From NCBI GenBank assembly GCA_013042125.1, contig JABDQS010000167.1:1-10374 (forward strand): a DNA stretch of 10,374 bases, in the 5' to 3' direction. Origin of the DNA: Eudoraea sp. GTDB taxonomy: Bacteria > Bacteroidota > Bacteroidia > Flavobacteriales > Flavobacteriaceae. The position numbers and the translations under genes are program-made. Of this stretch, positions 109-9,993 are shown piece after piece; positions within the stretch are counted from its first letter, which is position 1; each line of letters opens with the position of its first letter. Below the pieces are notes generated by a model. It saw only the letters and a program-made list of their open reading frames with translations, was not told where the DNA came from and did not search any database.

Positions 109-138
109 TTTGTAGATTGAAAATAAATTTTACATTTG
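109..138 (+). promoter_or_regulatory. Candidate Bacteroidota-type promoter of the his operon
   Basis: TACATTTG at 131-138 matches the Bacteroidota -7 consensus TAnnTTTG exactly. A TTTG at 109-112 lies 18 nt upstream, close to the usual spacing of the -33 element. Transcription would then start at about 143-147, at or beside the ATG of the leader ORF (146). A weaker alternative is TAAATTTT at 103-110 (7 of 8 matches), with TTTG at 75-78 as a distant -33 box. That promoter would start near 117 and leave a normal short leader before the ATG. The choice between the two cannot be made from sequence alone. Confidence 0.55.
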
Positions 139-145
139 CTGCTCT

Positions 146-199
146 ATGAGAAACAATAATACACATCATCACTCTGACTCTTGCCCTCAGGCAGGTTAG
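146..199 (+). CDS. hisL: his operon leader peptide, 17 aa with three consecutive His
   Basis: ATG at 146 opens an 18-codon frame ending at TAG 197-199 that encodes MRNNNTHHHSDSCPQAG. The His codons CAT CAT CAC lie at 164-172. The ORF stands between the promoter and a strong intrinsic terminator upstream of hisG. This is the arrangement of enterobacterial HisL, whose run of His codons senses charged tRNA-His through ribosome stalling. The run here is shorter than the seven His of E. coli. The peptide itself probably has no function beyond being translated. The symbol is used by analogy of position and role, because such short peptides show no meaningful homology. No Shine-Dalgarno site is visible, as is common in this phylum. 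Confidence 0.8.
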   Translation: MRNNNTHHHSDSCPQAG

Positions 200-236
200 G
201 AATGTAATGTTGTATTTATACCATATCCGGACCCGT
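180..236 (+). promoter_or_regulatory. Alternative hairpins of the his attenuator (pause stem and antiterminator)
   Basis: Two mutually exclusive pairings can be drawn by hand. Stem 1:2 pairs CTTGCC (180-185) with GGCAGG (190-195) around a CTCA loop, with one G-U pair. Stem 2:3 pairs 191-201 with 226-236 using G-C, A-U and wobble pairs with two mismatches. It would occupy the first six bases of the terminator's 5' arm. A ribosome stalled on the His codons (164-172) would cover roughly to 182-185 and break stem 1:2, which favours stem 2:3 and readthrough. A ribosome reaching the stop at 197-199 would cover strand 2 and allow termination. A further AU-rich pairing is possible between 158-166 and 207-216. 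No energies were calculated. Confidence 0.55.
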
Positions 237-263
237 TTGAGCAATCAAACGGGTTTTGTTTTT
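231..263 (+). terminator. Intrinsic terminator of the his attenuator
   Basis: ACCCGTTTGA (231-240) and TCAAACGGGT (245-254) are perfect inverted repeats around a GCAA tetraloop, followed by the T-rich tract TTTTGTTTTT (254-263). The structure ends 28 nt before the hisG ATG and lies after the His-rich leader ORF, so it can end transcription before the structural genes. It is the strongest terminator-like structure I see in the window. Confidence 0.9.
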
Positions 264-291
264 AGTTCAAAGAATAAAAAGTAAAGCAGAC

Positions 292-1153: not shown

Positions 1154-2449
1154 ATGAATAAGATATATGATCCGAAACGAAACGAATGGGAATCCATACT
1201 CGCCAGACCAACCCAAACGGTTGGAGATATTGAGGCAACAGTAAATACTATTTTCACAGATGTTCAGCAAAAAGGCGATGAGGCACTGAGAACTTATACG
1301 CAAAAGTTTGATGGGGTAGCTGTAAAAGACCTGCAAGTAGGAGAGGACGCCTTTGATGTGGCTGAGGAATCGCTTTCAGAACCTCTGAAGATGGCAATTC
1401 AAAAAGCTTACAAGAATATTAAACGTTTTCACGAAGCTCAAATAACGCCTGCCGTAAGGATTGAAACATCACCGGGAGTAGAATGCTGGCAGGAAAAGCG
1501 ACCCATCCAAAAAGTTGGACTTTATATTCCGGGAGGTACGGCACCCTTGTTCTCAACAATTTTAATGTTGGCTATTCCGGCGAAAATAGCGGGTTGCAAT
1601 GAGATAGTACTCTGCTCGCCTCCGGATAAGAATGGAGGTCTGCCGGCAGTTGTGATATATACGGCAAAGCTTTGCGGAATAACCAGGATTTTTAAAGTGG
1701 GAGGTATACAGGCCATAGCAGCTCTAACTTTTGGTACTCAAAGTATACCGAAAGTTTATAAGATATTTGGTCCGGGGAACCAATATGTTACTGTAGCCAA
1801 GCAGTTGGCAACGAAGTACGGTATTTCAATAGACATGCCAGCCGGACCCAGTGAGTTGCTGGTAATGGCAGATGATTCGGCGGAGCCAAGTTTTGTTGCA
1901 TCCGATCTTTTGAGTCAGGCTGAACACGGAACAGACAGCCAGGTAATTCTCGTATCTACTTCGAAAAAAATGTTGGGGGAAGTGGAGAAAGAAGTAGAGC
2001 TGCAACTAGAGCAACTTCCCAGAAAGGAGATTGCACGAAAAGCGATCGAAAATAGCAAACTTATCTTTGTTTCAACAGATGCAGAAGCTGTTGCATTGAT
2101 CAATGAGTACGGCCCTGAACACTATATTCTCTGTGTAAAGGATGAACAGTTCTATTTGGAAAATACAGCCAATGCAGGTTCAGTTTTTATAGGAAATTAC
2201 ACCCCGGAAAGTGCCGGAGATTATGCTTCCGGAACCAATCATACCTTACCCACTAATGGCTATGCTAAACAGTATAGTGGAGTAAATTTGGACAGCTTTA
2301 TGAAGAGTATCACCTTTCAGAAGATATCTGAAAAAGGCATCCTTTCATTGGGTGAAACCATAGAAATAATGGCAGAAGCAGAAGGATTGGAAGCACACAA
2401 AAATGCGGTTACGCTTCGTTTAAACAAATTAAAGGAAACTGTAAACTAA
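1154..2449 (+). CDS. hisD: Histidinol dehydrogenase
   Basis: HisD oxidises L-histidinol through histidinal to L-histidine with two NAD+, the last two steps of the pathway. It is a zinc-dependent cytosolic homodimer of about 430 aa, and this protein has 431. The family signature IDMPAGPSELLV is present. The zinc ligands expected from the E. coli enzyme map to Q255 and H258 (SQAEHGTDSQ), D356 (GDYASGTNH) and H415 (EAHKNAV). The catalytic Glu-His pair is E322-H323 in YGPEHY. The gene starts 7 nt after hisG and ends 12 nt before hisC, which points to co-transcription. Nothing is truncated or missing. Confidence 0.97.
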   Translation: MNKIYDPKRNEWESILARPTQTVGDIEATVNTIFTDVQQKGDEALRTYTQKFDGVAVKDLQVGEDAFDVAEESLSEPLKMAIQKAYKNIKRFHEAQITPAVRIETSPGVECWQEKRPIQKVGLYIPGGTAPLFSTILMLAIPAKIAGCNEIVLCSPPDKNGGLPAVVIYTAKLCGITRIFKVGGIQAIAALTFGTQSIPKVYKIFGPGNQYVTVAKQLATKYGISIDMPAGPSELLVMADDSAEPSFVASDLLSQAEHGTDSQVILVSTSKKMLGEVEKEVELQLEQLPRKEIARKAIENSKLIFVSTDAEAVALINEYGPEHYILCVKDEQFYLENTANAGSVFIGNYTPESAGDYASGTNHTLPTNGYAKQYSGVNLDSFMKSITFQKISEKGILSLGETIEIMAEAEGLEAHKNAVTLRLNKLKETVN

Positions 2450-2461
2450 TTCGTTGAATCC

Positions 2462-3526
2462 ATGAAAAACGAGAAAGAGATCTTGATTTTTGACTTGAAT
2501 CGGTTGATTCGGGAAAATGTAAGGGCCATGACACCGTATTCTTCGGCCAGGGATGAGTACGTTTCAGATGGTTCTGAGAAGATCTTTATGGATGCCAATG
2601 AGAATCCAAATGAAAATGGTTTAAATCGTTATCCTGATCCGCAACAACGATCCCTGAAATCAGCCTTGGCAGGTATAAAAGGGATTCAGCAAGACCATAT
2701 ATTACTAGGAAATGGCAGTGACGAAGTACTCGACCTGCTTTTCCGTGCCTTTTGCGAGCCATCAAAAGACAATGTCATTACAGTACCACCTACCTATGGT
2801 ATGTACAGTGTTCTGGCATCACTTAATAATATTGAGAACAGGAAGGTCTTATTGACGCCCTCCTTTACATTAGACGTAAAAGGGGTCCTGAATTCGATAG
2901 ATGCCAATACTAAAATGATCTTTCTGTGCTCCCCTAATAATCCTACCGGGAATTGCATTCCTAAAGATCAGATCAAAGAGATATTAGACCATTTCCATGG
3001 TTTGGTAGTGATAGATGAAGCGTACATAGATTTCACAACGAAAGGAAGCTGGTTGGGCGAGCTGGCGAATTATAAGAATCTTGTGGTAACTCAAACCTTC
3101 TCTAAGGCCTATGGAATGGCAGCTGTTCGTTTGGGTTCTTGTTTTGCATCCAGCGAGATCATAAACATATTAAATAAGATAAAGCCTCCATATAATGTCA
3201 ATGAACTAACTCAGATAAAGGCAAAGGAAAGGCTGTTGATGAAAAATGAGGTGGAACACGAAGTTGCCATTATTATTGAAGAACGCAAAAAGCTGGAAAG
3301 AGCCCTGAGAACTATCCCTTTTGTTCAAGAGGTATATCCCAGCGAGGCCAATTTTCTTTTGACCGTAGTTGATGATGCCGGTAAAAGATACAGGCAATTA
3401 TTAGACAGGGGTATTATAGTTAGAAACCGTTCTGGACAACCACTTTGCAAAAACACCCTGCGTTTTACCGTGGGTACTCCGGCTGAAAATGAAAGTTTGA
3501 TAAAGCTGCTAAAAGAAGTAATATGA
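2462..3526 (+). CDS. hisC: Histidinol-phosphate aminotransferase
   Basis: HisC is a PLP-dependent fold type I enzyme that moves an amino group from glutamate to imidazole-acetol phosphate, giving histidinol phosphate. The protein is 354 aa, normal for the family. Visible landmarks are the substrate-end motif MDANENP with [15 protein letters not shown] at 157-164, DEAY at 185-188 contacting the cofactor, and [14 protein letters not shown] with the PLP Schiff-base lysine K215. The C-terminal IIVRNRSG contains the Arg-rich substrate-binding segment. The start at 2462 leaves a few extra residues before the conserved core, and there is no other Met until about residue 22, so it is accepted. The TGA stop overlaps the hisB ATG by 4 nt (ATGA at 3523-3526), which suggests translational coupling. 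Confidence 0.96.
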
Positions 3527-4671
3527 AAACAGTTCAGAAAAAAAAGGTGTTGTTTATAGACCGGGATGGAACTCTTATTAAAGAGCCAGCCGATGAACAG
3601 ATAGATTCCTTCGAAAAATTAATATTTTACCCTGCAATTTTTACTTTTTTAGGTAAAATAGCCAAAGAGCTTTCTTATGAATTGGTAATGGTCACCAATC
3701 AGGATGGCTTGGGAACCGAATCATATCCCGAAGATACTTTTTGGCCGGTACATAATTTTATTATGAATACCATGGAACAAGAAGGGATAGTGTTTGAGGA
3801 GGTATTGATAGATAAAACATATCCGCATGAAAATGCTGAAACTCGTAAGCCGGCAACCGGTCTACTAACCCACTATTTTTCAGAAAAGTATGATCTGAAA
3901 AATTCTTATGTGATAGGGGATAGGTTAACCGATATGGAACTGGCGAAAAACCTGGGAGCAAAAGGTATTCTTATTCAAAATGATCTGGAACTGGGAAGCA
4001 ATGAGATCACCGTAGACCAAAAAGAAGTTCGATCCTTTATAGCTTTAGAAACGAACTCATGGAAAGCGATTTATCAGTATCTGTTAAATGAAAACAGGAT
4101 AGCCTCCCATGCCAGGAATACTAAAGAAACCAAGATCGTCATTCAGCTAAATTTAGATGGTACCGGAAAATCCAAAATTTCAACCGGACTTCCATTTTTT
4201 GACCATATGCTCGATCAGCTGGCGCGTCATGGGCAATTAGACCTGGATATTAATGTTGTAGGAGATCTTGAGGTAGATGAACATCATACTATAGAAGATA
4301 CGGCTATAGCTCTAGGCGAGGTTTTCTATGAAGCCCTGGGCTCAAAATTGGGGATTGAGCGCTATGGTTTTTGTCTCCCTATGGATGATTGCATGGCACA
4401 GGTTGCCATTGATTTTGGAGGCCGTAACTGGTTAGTTTGGGATGCAGATTTTAAGCGGGAAAAAATAGGAGACATGCCTACTGAAATGTTTTATCATTTC
4501 TTCAAATCTTTTACAGATGGAGCCAGGGCAAATCTGAATATTAAAGCGGAGGGAACCAATGAACACCACAAGATAGAAGCAATATTTAAAGCATTTGCAA
4601 AGTCGATCAAAATGGCTGTAAAACGAGATCAGGAAAAAATGATCCTGCCTTCTACCAAAGGCATGTTATAA
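3523..4671 (+). CDS. hisB: Bifunctional histidinol-phosphatase / imidazoleglycerol-phosphate dehydratase
   Basis: The protein is a two-domain fusion of 382 aa. Residues 1 to about 165 are a HAD-type histidinol phosphatase with nucleophile D13 and acid/base D15 (FIDRDGTLI), motif VTNQDG, R108-K109-P110 and GDRLTD at 132-137. Residues from about 198 are imidazoleglycerol-phosphate dehydratase, with paired metal-binding motifs HHTIED at 254-259 and EHHKIEA at 347-353 and the terminal STKG. It therefore supplies the dehydration step and the later dephosphorylation to histidinol. The E. coli-type zinc loop is altered: [11 protein letters not shown] at 100-110 keeps one His but has no Cys and a shorter loop. 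The gene overlaps hisC by 4 nt and lies 10 nt before hisH. Confidence 0.96.
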
Positions 4672-4681
4672 GAGAAGAGTA

Positions 4682-5263
4682 ATGAAGATCGTGATCATTG
4701 ACTATGGAGCAGGAAACATTCAAAGCATTCAATTTGCTTTGCAACGTCTTGGCTATACGGCTGTATTAAGTAGTGATAGGAATATCATTAAGGAAGCAGA
4801 CAAAGTTATATTCCCCGGGGTTGGAGAAGCCAGCAGTGCAATGACCAAATTAAAGGAAAGTGGTTTAGATACTTTAATACCTATGCTCAAACAGCCAGTC
4901 TTGGGAATCTGTCTGGGAATGCAACTGATGTGCAGGTATTCGGAAGAAGGAGACACCAATGGCTTGGGGATCTTTGACGTGGATGTGGTTAGATTTTCGA
5001 ACAAAGTAAAGGTGCCACAAATAGGCTGGAATCAGATCACTGACTTAAAAACTCCCCTTTTTAAAGATATTGCGGAGAAGGAATACATTTATTTGGTTCA
5101 CAGTTATTATGCGCCACTTTGTGAGGAGACCATTGCGGTTTCCGATTATGAACTTTTATACAGCAGTGCAATGTGTAAGGATAATTTCTGGGGAGTTCAG
5201 TTCCATCCGGAAAAAAGCAGTGAGGTAGGGGAACGTATACTAAAGAATTTTGTGAACCTCTAA
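4682..5263 (+). CDS. hisH: Imidazole glycerol phosphate synthase, glutaminase subunit
   Basis: HisH is a class I glutamine amidotransferase. It hydrolyses glutamine and passes ammonia through the barrel of HisF, where IGP and AICAR are formed. The protein is 193 aa, slightly below the usual 200. The catalytic triad is visible: nucleophile C77 in GICLGMQLM, and H175 and E177 in FHPEKSSE. The N-terminal IDYGAGNIQS and the oxyanion-region PGVGEA are also typical. The partner gene hisF lies downstream after hisA and the DinB-like gene, so both subunits come from one transcript without being adjacent. There is a 19-nt gap to hisA. Confidence 0.97.
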   Translation: MKIVIIDYGAGNIQSIQFALQRLGYTAVLSSDRNIIKEADKVIFPGVGEASSAMTKLKESGLDTLIPMLKQPVLGICLGMQLMCRYSEEGDTNGLGIFDVDVVRFSNKVKVPQIGWNQITDLKTPLFKDIAEKEYIYLVHSYYAPLCEETIAVSDYELLYSSAMCKDNFWGVQFHPEKSSEVGERILKNFVNL

Positions 5264-5282
5264 ATCATAGAAAACACTAAAA

Positions 5283-6020
5283 ATGAGGATTATTCCTGCC
5301 ATAGATATCATTGAGGGAAGTTGCGTACGACTTTCCAAAGGCGACTATGCTACCAAGAAAATATACAATGAAGACCCCTTAGAAGTTGCCAAAACATTTG
5401 AGGCGCATGGAATTACCCACCTGCATCTGGTAGATCTTGATGGTGCCAAGTCTAAGCATATTGTGAATTACAAGGTTTTAGAACAGATTGCGTCGAAAAC
5501 ATCTTTAAAGATCGATTTTGGCGGAGGTCTTAAATCGGATGAAGATCTTCGTATTGCTTTCAACTCGGGAGCAGAACAAATAACCGGGGGGAGCATTGCT
5601 GTTAAGGACAGCGAAACATTCCTTAGGTGGTTATCTCATTTTGGTGCTGATAAGATCATATTGGGTGCCGATGCGATGGATGAAAAGATTGCTGTTTCAG
5701 GCTGGCAGGAGTCGTCCGGTGAGGAATTGATCCCATTTATTCAACGCTATCAGAAAGAGGGAATTAAATATGTTATCTGTACTGATATTAGTAAAGACGG
5801 AATGCTGGAAGGCCCATCTAAAGTTCTTTACAAAAAGATCCTGCAAAAAACAGCAAAATCTAAAACCGATTTAAGTCTTATTGCCAGCGGTGGCATTGCA
5901 GAATACGAGGATCTGCAGGCTTTGAAAGATCTGGGATGCGAAGGCGCCATTATTGGTAAGGCTATTTATGAGAACAGAATTAGCTTAAAACAGTTGGAAG
6001 AATTTATTTTAGCATCATGA
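5283..6020 (+). CDS. hisA: ProFAR isomerase (phosphoribosylformimino-AICAR ribotide isomerase)
   Basis: HisA is a (beta/alpha)8-barrel that converts ProFAR to PRFAR by an Amadori rearrangement. The 245-aa length is typical. The catalytic aspartates are D8 (PAIDIIEG) and D130 (GADAMD), and T167 begins TDISKDGML at the second active-site strand. The two phosphate-binding elements are [10 protein letters not shown] in the first half and [11 protein letters not shown] in the second, the half-barrel repeat shared with HisF. SGWQE is present and points to HisA rather than HisF. The stop overlaps the start of the DinB-like gene by 4 nt (ATGA, 6017-6020), so the two are probably translationally coupled. 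Confidence 0.97.
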
Positions 6021-6538
6021 AAGACAACAGATCAGACCTTGCCAAGAACCTTGTGGATAATGCCATTTTCAGAATGGAAGAAAGCCTGAGGATGATCGCC
6101 AAAAGCACGGCCCTCTTAACTGAGGAGGAGCTATGGAAAAAACCAAATAAAGCCTCAAATAGCGTAGGGAATCTCATCATTCATCTGAAAGGCAATATTA
6201 CACAGTATATTCTCGCAGGCTTAGGAAGACAGGAGGACCATCGGCAACGCGATCTGGAATTCTCTGAAACACATAGTCACAATGCAAAAGAACTTAACCA
6301 ACAGTTGAAGGCGGTAGTGGAAGAGGTTAAAACAGTGCTATATGGTATAAAAGATGCAGAAATGACCAAAGTCATTCCTGTGCAGGGCTTTAAATTAAGC
6401 GGGCTTGGGATCATACTACATGTAGTTGAACATTTATCTTACCATACCGGTCAGATCGCCTTTTGGACCAAGATCCTAAAGAATAAAGATCTCGAATTTT
6501 ATAAGGGCTTCGATCTGAATACTAAAAACGAGAAATAA
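6017..6538 (+). CDS. DinB-superfamily protein, DUF1572-like, inside the his operon
   Basis: The protein has 173 aa, is soluble and mostly helical, with no signal peptide. It resembles the DinB/YfiT four-helix-bundle superfamily, DUF1572 branch: [24 protein letters not shown] is followed near the end by [15 protein letters not shown]. Three histidines, H56, H139 and H143, are positioned as the metal triad of this superfamily; H135 is also near. Characterised relatives include thiol transferases and the N-terminal domain of ergothioneine synthase EgtB, but the substrate here is unknown. It is not a known histidine-pathway enzyme. It overlaps hisA by 4 nt and its TAA directly abuts the hisF ATG, so it must be expressed with the pathway. 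A role in histidine metabolism is inferred from this position only. Confidence 0.85.
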
Positions 6539-7294
6539 ATGCTGACCAAAAGGATCATACCTTGTCTTGATATTAAAAATGGGCGCACTGTAAAAGGCAT
6601 TAACTTCGTGGACCTTCGCGATGCCGGGGACCCTGTGGAGTTGGCACAGCGATATGCCCGGGAAGGTGCAGATGAATTGGTCTTTCTTGACATCTCAGCT
6701 ACTGAGGAAGAACGTAAGACCCTTGCTGATTTGGTAAAAAGGGTGGCTGAAAAGGTAAATATCCCCTTTACTGTTGGTGGGGGTATTTCTTCGGTGGAAG
6801 ATGTAAATAAGTTATTATACAATGGGGCAGATAAGATCTCGATAAACTCATCGGCCGTTAAGAATCCGGATCTGATCAATCAACTGGTTGCAAAATTTGG
6901 CTCACAATGCATAGTGGTTGCCATAGATGCCAAAAGAATAGATAACAGCTGGAAGGTACATTTGGTAGGTGGCAAAGTTCCTACAGACATTGATCTCTTC
7001 GAATGGGCCAAAGAGGTGGAAGATAGGGGAGCGGGAGAGATACTTTTTACCTCCATGGATCATGATGGAACAAAGAATGGCTTTGCCAATGAAGCACTTG
7101 CACAACTATCAGAGACCTTGAATATTCCCATTATAGCTTCTGGTGGAGCAGGGAATATGGATCATTTTGCCGATACCTTTACCAAGGGAAAGGCAGACGC
7201 TGCTTTAGCTGCCAGTGTTTTTCATTTTAAAGAAATAGAAATAATAGACCTGAAGAATTACCTGATTGAGCGGAACATCCCAATGAGGGTATAA
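6539..7294 (+). CDS. hisF: Imidazole glycerol phosphate synthase, cyclase subunit
   Basis: HisF is a (beta/alpha)8-barrel that uses ammonia from HisH to turn PRFAR into IGP and AICAR. The 251-aa length is typical. The catalytic acid/base pair sits at the canonical positions, D11 ([11 protein letters not shown]) and D130 (VVAIDAKR). [12 protein letters not shown] and [11 protein letters not shown] are the two phosphate-binding loops, and [13 protein letters not shown] is the HisF-specific strand. The start ATG follows the TAA of the DinB-like gene with no gap, and hisIE follows after 28 nt. No anomaly is seen. Confidence 0.98.
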
Positions 7295-7322
7295 GATTTA
7301 TAAAGACATTAAAGAACTTACA

Positions 7323-7919
7323 ATGAAAGTAGATTTTAATAAAAATAAAGATGGCCTTGTGCCTACGATCATTCAGGACGCCAACACAAAGAATGTTCTT
7401 ATGCTGGGATATATGGATCAGCAAGCCCTGGATAAAACTTTGGATACAGGGAAGGTCACCTTTTACAGCAGAACAAAAAAGCGACTTTGGACAAAAGGCG
7501 AAGAAAGTGGTCATTTTCTTTCTGTAGAAGAGATAACTGAAGATTGTGATCAGGATACCTTACTTGTCTCTGTAACACCTAAGGGTCCTACCTGTCATAA
7601 AGGATCGGACACCTGCTGGAATACTGAGAACAAAGCCTCTTATGGGTTTTTAACCAGGCTTGAAGGAGTTATTGCCGAAAGACATAGCAATGCTGCCTCT
7701 GATAAAAGTTATGTAGCCTCACTTTTCGAGAAAGGGATCAATAAAATTGCTCAAAAAGTAGGAGAGGAAGCTGTTGAAGTTGTTATTGAGGCCAAGGACA
7801 CAAATGAGGAACGCTTTCTAAATGAGGGTGCCGACCTGCTGTTTCATTATCTGATCTTGTTACGGGCCAAAGGAGTAGTTTTGGATGACGTGGTAAAGGT
7901 ATTAGAGCAGCGTCATTGA
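7323..7919 (+). CDS. hisI: Bifunctional phosphoribosyl-AMP cyclohydrolase / phosphoribosyl-ATP pyrophosphatase
   Basis: The protein (198 aa, also called hisIE) is a fusion that carries out steps two and three: pyrophosphate removal from PR-ATP and opening of the adenine ring of PR-AMP. Residues 1 to about 105 are the cyclohydrolase, with MLGYMDQQAL, FYSRTKKRLWTKGEESG and the zinc cysteines C75, C91 and C98 (CHKGSDTC). Residues from about 112 are the all-alpha pyrophosphatase, with KIAQKVGEEAVEVVIEA and the second acidic helix EGADLLFHYLILL providing Mg2+ ligands. It is the last gene of the operon. No convincing terminator follows it; a 16-bp palindrome covers its stop codon, and the convergent gene ends 35 nt away. 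Confidence 0.97.
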   Translation: MKVDFNKNKDGLVPTIIQDANTKNVLMLGYMDQQALDKTLDTGKVTFYSRTKKRLWTKGEESGHFLSVEEITEDCDQDTLLVSVTPKGPTCHKGSDTCWNTENKASYGFLTRLEGVIAERHSNAASDKSYVASLFEKGINKIAQKVGEEAVEVVIEAKDTNEERFLNEGADLLFHYLILLRAKGVVLDDVVKVLEQRH

Positions 7920-7954: not shown

Positions 7955-8770
7955 CTACCACCAAACAACAAAGAATTTTTCAAAAACCGATTCTTCTTTT
8001 TTCATCCAAACCAGGGGTGAACGCTTTCTGTAAAGCAGACTTTTAAGTTCAAGTAACAGTTCAGAATGTGATATCCAAAATTCTTTATTATATGGACTTA
8101 CAGCCCATTCATCCTTTGTAGGTACATAGTATTCATATTCTTGGAATTTGATGGTGTCAAATGCCTCAAATGAAAGCCAAAATCCCGAGATACAAAGCTT
8201 GTTAAAGGGTTTATAAACCACCTCAGAATGATCATACGGGGTGAATAATTGCGCTTTAAAACAAACTTCTTGTTTAATGTCCTCAGACTTTACATCGAGC
8301 AAGGCTAGTTGTTCTTTTCCTTCTTCTAAAAATGGAATTTGGAACTGTGTGTTTTTTAGTTTCTCCAGTTTGGAATGGAATTTATCCCTCCTGTTGGGAC
8401 CTATTAGTTGATACAAGGGTTTCCCAAGTGTGGTATCTATCAGATAGAATTTATAGGTCAATTCTAAATGCAGAATTCTCCCATCTCTCTTGTCTTTTAA
8501 GAGGAAGTCGATTTCCCCGATGGTCCGCTTATTTCTCTTTACGGTCACATTATGTGCGAGGAGATCATAGATGACCTGTCCTTGCAGACAATTTTTAAAA
8601 ACATGTTCCATTTTATGCCCCAACCGCATGTTTGCCGGGACATTACTATTGTGTACCTTATCAACATCGATCACGGGAAATACAAACTGCTTTAAACCAA
8701 ATTGCCTGTCTGGCCATAGAGGCGGTGTTCCGATGAAGGCTTTTAAAATTTTTGTCGTCAGAGTAACCAT
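7955..8770 (-). CDS. DUF1853-type protein with a probable PD-(D/E)XK nuclease-like core
   Basis: The protein has 271 aa and no signal peptide or membrane segment. It carries what I recognise as the DUF1853 pattern: RLGHKMEHVF (49-58), LLAHNVTVKR, GEIDFLLKDKRDG (85-97), HLELTYKFYL (101-110) and GPNRRDKFHSK (124-134). E55, D88, E103 and K107 are arranged like the Glu, Asp and E-x-K residues of PD-(D/E)XK nucleases, with the Lys displaced by two positions. No substrate or pathway is known to me for the family. The C-terminal half, residues 150-271, is rich in aromatic residues and unrecognised. The gene runs against hisI and is divergent from the VWA gene. The start at 8770 is the first Met before the homologous region, and the gene is not part of the his operon. 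Confidence 0.8.
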   Translation of the reverse strand: MVTLTTKILKAFIGTPPLWPDRQFGLKQFVFPVIDVDKVHNSNVPANMRLGHKMEHVFKNCLQGQVIYDLLAHNVTVKRNKRTIGEIDFLLKDKRDGRILHLELTYKFYLIDTTLGKPLYQLIGPNRRDKFHSKLEKLKNTQFQIPFLEEGKEQLALLDVKSEDIKQEVCFKAQLFTPYDHSEVVYKPFNKLCISGFWLSFEAFDTIKFQEYEYYVPTKDEWAVSPYNKEFWISHSELLLELKSLLYRKRSPLVWMKKEESVFEKFFVVWW

Positions 8771-8847: not shown

Positions 8848-9993
8848 ATGGCTATGAAAACGAGAAGCGGTTTCCGATTCACTACTTATAATGCTCCTGA
8901 TCAAACCCCTTTTGAAAAACTTTTTGAGATTTTTCAAGAGCTTATTACACACACCTCTGGTGATGTGGATGAAGCCCTTGATTGGCTTCGTGAACTCGAT
9001 AAGGAATACGATCTTACAGATGAGGACTACACCATAGACGACTTTATAGAGGATCTGAAGGCAAAGGGATATTTAAGGGAAGAAATAGAACAGGGTGATG
9101 GGGGAGATGGAAAGGGAGATCCCGGAAAAGGATCTTTATCCATTACGGCCAAAATGGAACGTATTATCAGGCAGAGGGCCTTGGATCAGATCTTCGGAAA
9201 GATCAAAAGAAGTGGTTCAGGAAATCATAGAACCGGTAAGGCCGGAATAGGAGATGAACATACAGGAGATTTTAAGAAATATCACTATGGGGATTCACTA
9301 GATAGGATCTCCATGACGGAGAGCCTGAGGAATGCACAGGTAAATCACGGTCTGGATGGATTCTCTCTAACTGAGGACGACCTTGTAATAGAAGATACGC
9401 ACCACAAGGCACAAATGAGCACTGTGTTAATGATAGACATTAGCCATAGCATGATCCTGTATGGAGAAGATAGAATTACACCTGCAAAAAAGGTGGCAAT
9501 GGCACTGGCGGAGTTGATCACGACAAGGTATCCAAAAGACACTTTGGATATTCTTGTTTTTGGAAATGATGCCTGGCCAATTCCTATTAAGGATCTTCCG
9601 TACCTGAAAGTAGGACCCTATCATACAAATACCGTTGCCGGATTGCAGTTGGCTATGGATATGCTGAGAAGAAAAAAGAATACCAACAAACAGATCTTTA
9701 TGATCACAGATGGAAAGCCAAGTTGTTTGCGAATGCCAGATGGTAGTTACTATAAAAATAGCGTCGGATTAGATGATTTCATTGTTGAGAAGTGCTACAA
9801 TATGGCCAGACAAGCACGTAAATTGCATATCCCTATTACGACCTTTATGATTGCCCAGGACCCATATTTAATGCAGTTTGTTCGTCATTTTACTGAGGCG
9901 AATAAGGGGAAGGCGCTGTTCACCGGATTACAAGGTTTAGGGGAAATGATCTTTGAGGACTACGAAAAGAACAGACGAAAAAGACTAAAATAA
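8848..9993 (+). CDS. VWA domain protein with intact MIDAS, partner of a MoxR-like ATPase
   Basis: The protein has 381 aa and is cytosolic, with no signal peptide or membrane segment. Residues 1-80 are an acidic helical region. Residues 81-96 are a Gly/Asp/Lys-rich linker (EQGDGGDGKGDPGKGS). From about residue 190 comes a von Willebrand factor A domain with a full metal-ion-dependent adhesion site: D197, S199 and S201 in DISHS, a Thr at 260 or 262 in HTNTVAGLQLA, and D288 in ITDG. The C-terminus is basic (NRRKRLK). VWA proteins encoded beside MoxR-family AAA+ ATPases generally act with them as chaperone-like complexes, as in RavA-ViaA and the CbbQ-CbbO type. The ATPase gene follows after 35 nt. 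ATG 8854 is an alternative start two codons downstream. The client protein is unknown. Confidence 0.88.
   Translation: MAMKTRSGFRFTTYNAPDQTPFEKLFEIFQELITHTSGDVDEALDWLRELDKEYDLTDEDYTIDDFIEDLKAKGYLREEIEQGDGGDGKGDPGKGSLSITAKMERIIRQRALDQIFGKIKRSGSGNHRTGKAGIGDEHTGDFKKYHYGDSLDRISMTESLRNAQVNHGLDGFSLTEDDLVIEDTHHKAQMSTVLMIDISHSMILYGEDRITPAKKVAMALAELITTRYPKDTLDILVFGNDAWPIPIKDLPYLKVGPYHTNTVAGLQLAMDMLRRKKNTNKQIFMITDGKPSCLRMPDGSYYKNSVGLDDFIVEKCYNMARQARKLHIPITTFMIAQDPYLMQFVRHFTEANKGKALFTGLQGLGEMIFEDYEKNRRKRLK

Follow-up and report, generated by a model that had tools for sequence, protein, structure and literature searches.

A probable near-leaderless histidine attenuator upstream of hisG in Eudoraea sp.

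The histidine biosynthesis (his) operon of Eudoraea sp. is most probably preceded by a ribosome-mediated transcription attenuator with a near-leaderless leader, a reading of the sequence to which we give a probability of roughly 0.87. The whole stretch of DNA that was analyzed, hereafter the window, is 10,374 nucleotides long and holds a complete his operon. The attenuator reading is supported by anatomy, conservation, covariation, and promoter spacing. Upstream of hisG lie a short leader open reading frame (ORF) that contains consecutive codons for histidine, the product of the operon, a stop codon so positioned that a ribosome finishing the ORF would cover strand 2 (186–197) of the leader RNA, an intrinsic terminator between the leader ORF and the first gene, and an antiterminator that shares strand 3 (230–241) and that, by folding and comparison, is mutually exclusive with the terminator. 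A caveat is that three His codons are few for an attenuator.

The his genes were named from Pfam domains and gene order, and all are on the forward strand. hisG (292–1146; PF01634, PF08029) is the first gene of the presumably controlled operon and is followed by hisD, hisC, a bifunctional hisB, hisH, hisA, a DinB-family gene, hisF, and hisIE (1154–7919). The DinB/DUF1572-family gene (6017–6538) sits between hisA and hisF, and its ORF overlaps hisA by 4 nt. On the 3′ side of the operon are a gene for a DUF1853 protein (7955–8770, reverse strand) and one for a von Willebrand factor A domain protein (8848–9993, forward strand).

The leader ORF, MRNNNTHHHSDSCPQAG followed by the stop codon TAG (146–199, forward strand), is of the hisL type, and its translation from a near-leaderless mRNA is predicted. 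Read from the sequence, it has the 17 codons and the three consecutive His codons ahead of hisG that an earlier, sequence-only reading of this DNA had described; these putative control codons, CAT CAT CAC, occupy 164–172 and the run is kept in relatives. The comparison covers 261 hisG loci: 26 from relatives' genomes (26 of 40 had a HisG match), 80 named genome records that are the best 80 of 591 confirmed, and 155 from wider searches, in which 166 of 199 genomes of the family, 61 of 98 of the order, and 58 of 129 of the class had a match. The 155 wider loci are part of those matches, 75 taken from the searches and 80 fetched, and the genome sets overlap (L035 and L110, for example, are identical in HisG). 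By a single criterion, an ORF of 6–40 codons with at least three His in six, a His-rich leader occurs in 248 of the 261 upstream regions across Bacteroidia, against 8, 6, 5, 9, and 9 in five sets of dinucleotide shuffles of the same regions. Seven of the 13 loci that miss the criterion have a leader with fewer His codons in a relaxed scan made without shuffle control, among them MRTKNTNHHSLTCTQAS from the same genus as the window, and no leader was found in 6 of the 261 loci with the relaxed scan included. The locus L006 of the window's genus, with no more than two His codons side by side, was excluded wherever a count required a leader. Between leader and hisG, 239 of the 248 leader-bearing loci have a terminator of −9 kcal/mol or lower, and the conserved His run and terminator that had been expected in relatives are thus both present. 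Three class-level loci (L218, L219, and L220) have a His-rich leader, but a terminator of −6 kcal/mol or better was not found in them; their leader may control translation instead, or work through a site that the scan overlooked.

In an alignment of 64 relatives from the window's clade, 62 have the stop codon in one and the same column. Each of the 126 gaps inside the ORF has a length divisible by three, as do 59 of the 349 gaps 3′ of it; many of the ORF gaps are shared by descent and so are not independent. With that reservation, such conservation of frame and stop is what a translated ORF would leave in the sequences.

The RNA from 143 to 270 folds to −36.1 kcal/mol, compared with a mean of −23.3 in shuffles (z −3.7); none of 200 dinucleotide shuffles folds as low. 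The core of the leader hairpin, strands 1:2 (173–200), pairs 173–179 with 194–200 and 182–185 with 190–193, or alternatively 180–185 with 190–195. The latter form, at −7.6 kcal/mol, is the hairpin that the sequence-only reading had placed at 180–195. Folding, covariation, and the pairing test described below point to an outer leader helix (153–213), in which the start of the ORF (153–163) pairs with a segment beyond its stop codon (203–213). The antiterminator (186–241), drawn from folding and comparison, consists of 186–192/235–241 and 194–197/230–233, extended by 199–204/222–228; when RNA 185–245, which lacks the leader hairpin's 5′ arm and the terminator's 3′ arm, is folded, the antiterminator forms at −17.2 kcal/mol, and 5 of 200 shuffles fold as well. 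The intrinsic terminator (229–263), seen in sequence and folding, has a stem of 229–240/245–256 and a T-tract at 254–263, with TTTTGTTTTT after the stem and overlapping its end, and its energy is −16.1 kcal/mol, in keeping with the terminator and T-tract described earlier. All of these elements are on the forward strand. The energies of terminator and antiterminator are close, so the outcome would be set by kinetics. The earlier view that the stems are mutually exclusive holds, with the antiterminator better placed at the pairings given here than at 191–236; the stop codon (197–199), which had been put just after strand 2, instead overlaps its end. A 25-codon ORF at 207–284 overlaps the terminator.

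A terminator and a long structured leader are also what a T-box, a riboswitch, or a protein-binding terminator would present, the His-rich ORF being incidental. However, no Rfam family reaches its cut-off anywhere in the window, T-box and his_leader (RF00514, which we take to be the leader, hisL, of the enterobacterial his operon) included, and the frame, the position of the stop codon, and the His run are conserved in the manner of a translated sequence, which makes this explanation extremely unlikely. Even with E values up to 10, Rfam gave only seven weak and unrelated matches in 100–320, his_leader not among them, and the best of these, PyrR, scores 23.8 bits against a cut-off of 54.

From the anatomy we infer the start site, leader translation, stalling, and regulation by histidine, which together make up the stalled-ribosome attenuation that had been suggested from the sequence and that the present results support. 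Transcription would start at about 143, 2–3 nt 5′ of the leader AUG, and a ribosome would start near the 5′ end of the RNA without a Shine-Dalgarno site. When charged His-tRNA is scarce, the ribosome would stall at 164–172 and occupy the leader hairpin's 5′ arm, presumably to about 177–184 if we assume a usual ribosome footprint. Strand 2 would thereby be freed to pair with strand 3, the terminator would be blocked, and the his genes would be transcribed. When histidine is plentiful, the ribosome would reach the stop codon at 197–199 and cover strand 2, and the terminator (229–256) would form. The leader hairpin would hide strand 2 when no ribosome is present, so that termination would be the default.

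The terminated product predicted by this scheme is a near-leaderless RNA of about 120 nt, like rnTrpL as portrayed in passages of PMC10117765, and the leader could instead serve mainly as a source of a trans-acting regulatory RNA or peptide, with attenuation secondary (compare rnTrpL/peTrpL of Sinorhizobium meliloti). This is very unlikely, since in the sequences compared the residues other than the His run and a terminal QA[RSG] vary, and the terminal motif falls on strand 2.

Helices of the attenuator were tested by comparing the pairing of each segment with its own partner and with the partners from other loci, over 230 non-redundant leaders with a terminator (229–230 loci). The arms of the terminator pair better matched than mismatched (mean z −1.70), as do strand 2 and the terminator's 5′ arm plus loop (−0.99) and the two sides of the leader helix, formed by the beginning of the ORF and the stretch beyond its stop codon (−0.89); the values of seven sham pairings range from −0.08 to +0.12. 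These values substantiate the compensatory pairing changes that had been anticipated. Strand 2 with the 5′ arm alone gives z −0.79, yet no more than 90 of 229 loci have a value under the mismatched median, and one sham pairing, of the 3′ arm of the terminator with a downstream segment, reaches −0.64 when set against shuffles of its own sequence. The results are alike for 130 less similar representatives (−1.86, −1.12, and −0.79). Within the window's clade, the 5′ arm of the terminator, CCCGTTTGAG, is invariant in all 64 aligned relatives. The leader hairpin has 66 cells changed on both sides compared with 32.0 (sd 4.9) in shuffled alignments, none of 500 being as high, a test in which related sequences can exceed the shuffles without structure; its count of pairs with a double change, 12 against 10.2, is reached in 64 of 500 shuffles and is unremarkable. 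The antiterminator core is 94.9% paired across the 64 relatives, and its 14 double-change cells within the clade (10.5 in shuffles, reached in 62 of 500) do not go beyond the shuffles because strand 3 hardly varies there; covariation of the putative antiterminator is thus a property of the wider set of loci and not of the window's clade by itself. RNAalifold, applied to the 64-row alignment, recovered the terminator and none of the other helices.

The near-leaderless start is predicted from the spacing between promoter and ATG. A −7 box, TACATTTG (131–138, forward strand), matching the Bacteroidota consensus TAnnTTTG, is preceded by a −33 element TTG at 110–112 on the same strand with a spacer of 18 nt, and a second TTG stands at 117 with a spacer of 11. 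Passages of PMC6847099 give 4–5 nt between the −7 box and the start site in Flavobacterium johnsoniae, and in F. psychrophilum, according to the main text of PMC9723704, the box spans −12 to −5. In the window, the box ends at 138, 7 nt before the ATG at 146, so the predicted start is at 143–144 and the 5′ untranslated region (UTR) would be 2–3 nt long. Transcription would thus start upstream of the ORF, at about 143, not downstream of 199 as would have told against the attenuator. Bacteroidota are described in PMC6847099, in the passages concerned, as lacking Shine-Dalgarno sites; a near-leaderless start could explain how a ribosome finds the leader in the absence of such a site, and the earlier remark that translation of the leader must be set differently can be sharpened to a predicted UTR of 2–3 nt.

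Over the 248 leaders, the gaps between box and ATG have their main peaks at 7–8 and 17–20 nt, and competing boxes produce two minor peaks, of 11 loci at 14 nt and 10 loci at 35 nt. Automatic classification gave 71 leaderless loci, 117 leadered, 27 ties, and 33 with no box in range; on visual inspection, 24 of the 27 ties were classed as leaderless, including 22 loci of the window's clade in which one-mismatch boxes near and far are equal, and 15 of the 33 were put to leadered by hand, so that the final classes of the 261 loci are 95 leaderless, 132 leadered, and 34 unassigned. The leaderless class has C at −4 (0.65) and a purine at −3 (0.69) and is without an A-rich UTR, and the leadered class, found in other lineages, has a gap of 17–20 nt and an A-rich 5′ UTR. 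On a tree of HisG, the leaderless/leadered label needs at least 16 changes, five of them forced by well-supported branches; this tree was built with FastTree from HisG only, and 102 of its 253 internal branches are open.

The same attenuator might nevertheless be leadered, the real promoter lying further upstream and the TACATTTG box being a chance match. In those Bacteroidota that have been mapped, a minority of mRNAs is leaderless: the passages of PMC6847099 report leaders longer than 10 nt for 87% of the predicted transcripts of F. johnsoniae, and published figures are 5.5% leaderless mRNAs in F. psychrophilum and about 3.7% of UTRs shorter than 10 nt in Bacteroides thetaiotaomicron. Against this, the window and the other six loci of its genus all have a perfect box, and a box stands 4–9 nt from the ATG, the leaderless spacing, in 68 of the 72 rows that make up the HisG clade of the window. 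Of the 68, 22 are hand-assigned loci with an equally good one-mismatch box further upstream; the other four rows are two leadered and two unassigned. A −33 TTG lies 17–21 nt 5′ of the box in 38 of the 68 leaderless-clade loci, a count that cuts both ways, since it is little more than half and yet far above the 123 of 1360 shuffles. With the A-rich UTR of the leadered class also absent from the leaderless class, we regard a leadered form in the window as unlikely and continue with the near-leaderless attenuator.

In many relatives, a further segment downstream of the terminator, segment 5, can pair with strand 3. Among the 224 loci with enough spacer, at least 9 contiguous bp between the 5′ arm plus loop of the terminator and segment 5 occur in 101, against 56 of 2240 shuffles. 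All but one of these 101 pairings include at least two loop bases, there are 69 distinct pair variants, and changes in the loop are matched in segment 5 (for example TAAA/TTTA, TACA/TGTA, CACA/TGTG, and ACAA/TTGT). In the matched-versus-mismatched comparison, the 3:5 pairing has z −0.50 and the pairing of segment 5 with the hisG start −0.30. The 3:5 pairing is present in 81 of 127 leadered, 16 of 83 leaderless, and 4 of 14 unassigned loci; by kinship, in 0 of 6 loci of the window's genus, 37 of 79 of the same family, 19 of 29 of the same order, 43 of 77 named records, and 2 of 33 from other orders of the same class. Examples are L010, L020, L021, L075, L091, L137, L139, L142–L144, and L147–L155, and L022 has a version with one mismatch. 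From the sequences compared, a 3:5 pairing in relatives is well supported. For the window itself, segment 5 was rejected: GTTCAAA (265–271, forward strand) is at most a rudiment of it, with a 7-bp match to the terminator arm that is not significant (z −1.1), and none of the six loci of the genus has 9 bp or more.

A pairing of at least 7 bp over the hisG start codon is also available in 61 of the 100 loci with a 3:5 pairing of at least 9 bp, compared with 22 of 99 loci without one and 360 of 1990 shuffles, and five or more bases of segment 5 are common to both pairings in 47 of these 61 loci. Where the start differs from ATGAGTAAA (51 starts), the run is 5.88 when matched and 5.58 when mismatched, and the former is longer in 29 of 51; being near the mismatched level, these starts leave the start-codon half resting largely on species with an ATGAGTA start. 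The idea that segment 5 always closes the hisG start was accordingly rejected. When 3:5 is imposed in place of the terminator, the hisG start becomes more open by prediction, going from 0.48 to 0.73 in the 3:5 loci and from 0.60 to 0.72 in the other 99, so part of the effect is general. The mean minimum free energy is −21.2 for 3:5 and −25.4 for 3:4; energies by themselves give no preference for 3:5, and a two-layer arrangement would need kinetics. In such an arrangement, proper antitermination would leave an RNA that ends in the 3:5 pairing with hisG open, and a transcript that leaks through a formed terminator would keep 3:4, so that segment 5 could close the hisG start. That 3:5 serves as a second, translational layer is a guess. 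It is possible, at somewhat less than even odds, that many his attenuators of Flavobacteriales have two layers and that the window's genus dropped the second and kept the leaderless first; if so, the covarying segment would form part of a ribosome-sensed switch that acts on transcription and then on translation.

Leaders of other amino-acid genes were surveyed in the window's genus. A Phe/Tyr-rich pheA leader with a one-mismatch box 17–22 nt upstream occurs in 7 of 8 loci, the box of L264 being 13 or 22 nt upstream depending on the start codon. In L263–L269, the leader peptide contains FYFYFFF or FYFYFFY about 150 nt upstream of pheA, and a terminator was present in all six examined, which makes this a candidate leadered phenylalanine attenuator by sequence. 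Because the pheA leaders are leadered in 7 of 8 loci, leaderless leader peptides as a habit of the whole genus were rejected, and the predicted leaderless design is specific to the operon, not to the genus. No convincing leader was found for ilvD in 8 loci. In L281–L285, a leader ORF with several Thr codons that ends in TPWG lies about 155 nt upstream of a thrA-type gene, an aspartokinase-family frame of 818–832 aa. This leader has leaderless spacing in 5 of 8 loci, with a perfect −7 box 6 nt before the ATG; a terminator better than −5.6 kcal/mol was found in 0 of 8, and the leader is a candidate translational attenuator.

Leader-peptide attenuation of his operons is textbook knowledge, and attenuation requires the leader ribosome and RNA polymerase to be in step. 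For Bacteroidota, which lack Shine-Dalgarno sites, timely loading of the leader ribosome is the question that the apparently leaderless clade addresses, and this clade beside sister lineages that have the same attenuator with an A-rich 5′ UTR makes ribosome loading directly testable. In the Bacillus subtilis trp operon, transcription and translation attenuation occur together with the TRAP protein as sensor, and the hisL anatomy comprises a His-codon run, alternative hairpins, and a terminator, with seven His codons in the E. coli his leader. The window resembles enterobacterial hisL in its His-codon run, alternative hairpins, terminator, and hisG as first gene of the operon; it differs in having three rather than seven His codons, a Bacteroidota promoter, no Rfam match, no Shine-Dalgarno site, and a predicted near-leaderless start. 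PMC9226507 describes transcription and translation attenuation together for vmlR, where an antibiotic is sensed; this system and B. subtilis trp are comparable only to segment 5 of the relatives, and in neither is the sensor a ribosome stalled at His codons. A study of his genes in Bacteroidota (PMC8305728) mentions attenuation, in the sections concerned, once, for Salmonella enterica and E. coli. In the open-licence literature, as represented by titles, abstract openings, and passages, we found no described leaderless or His attenuator in Bacteroidota. The tetQ gene of Bacteroides has a translational attenuator (Wang 2005, as cited in a passage of PMC5418344), which shares leader-based attenuation in Bacteroidota with the window but senses an antibiotic and acts on translation. 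According to passages of PMC10117765, trpL/rnTrpL of S. meliloti encodes an attenuator leader peptide on a leaderless RNA; it resembles what is predicted for the window, an attenuator peptide translated from a near-leaderless RNA, and differs in responding to tryptophan and belonging to Alphaproteobacteria, and no homology is claimed. The main-text sections of PMC9723704 report a conserved structured 5′ element without Rfam match upstream of hisG in Flavobacteriaceae including F. psychrophilum, the same gene and family as the attenuator of the window, and its authors name clues of attenuation upstream of amino-acid operons; those sections do not describe a leader peptide or a leaderless start for hisG. 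The class of attenuator is therefore known and the hisG 5′ element of Flavobacteriaceae is in print, and the predicted leaderless design is a new variant.
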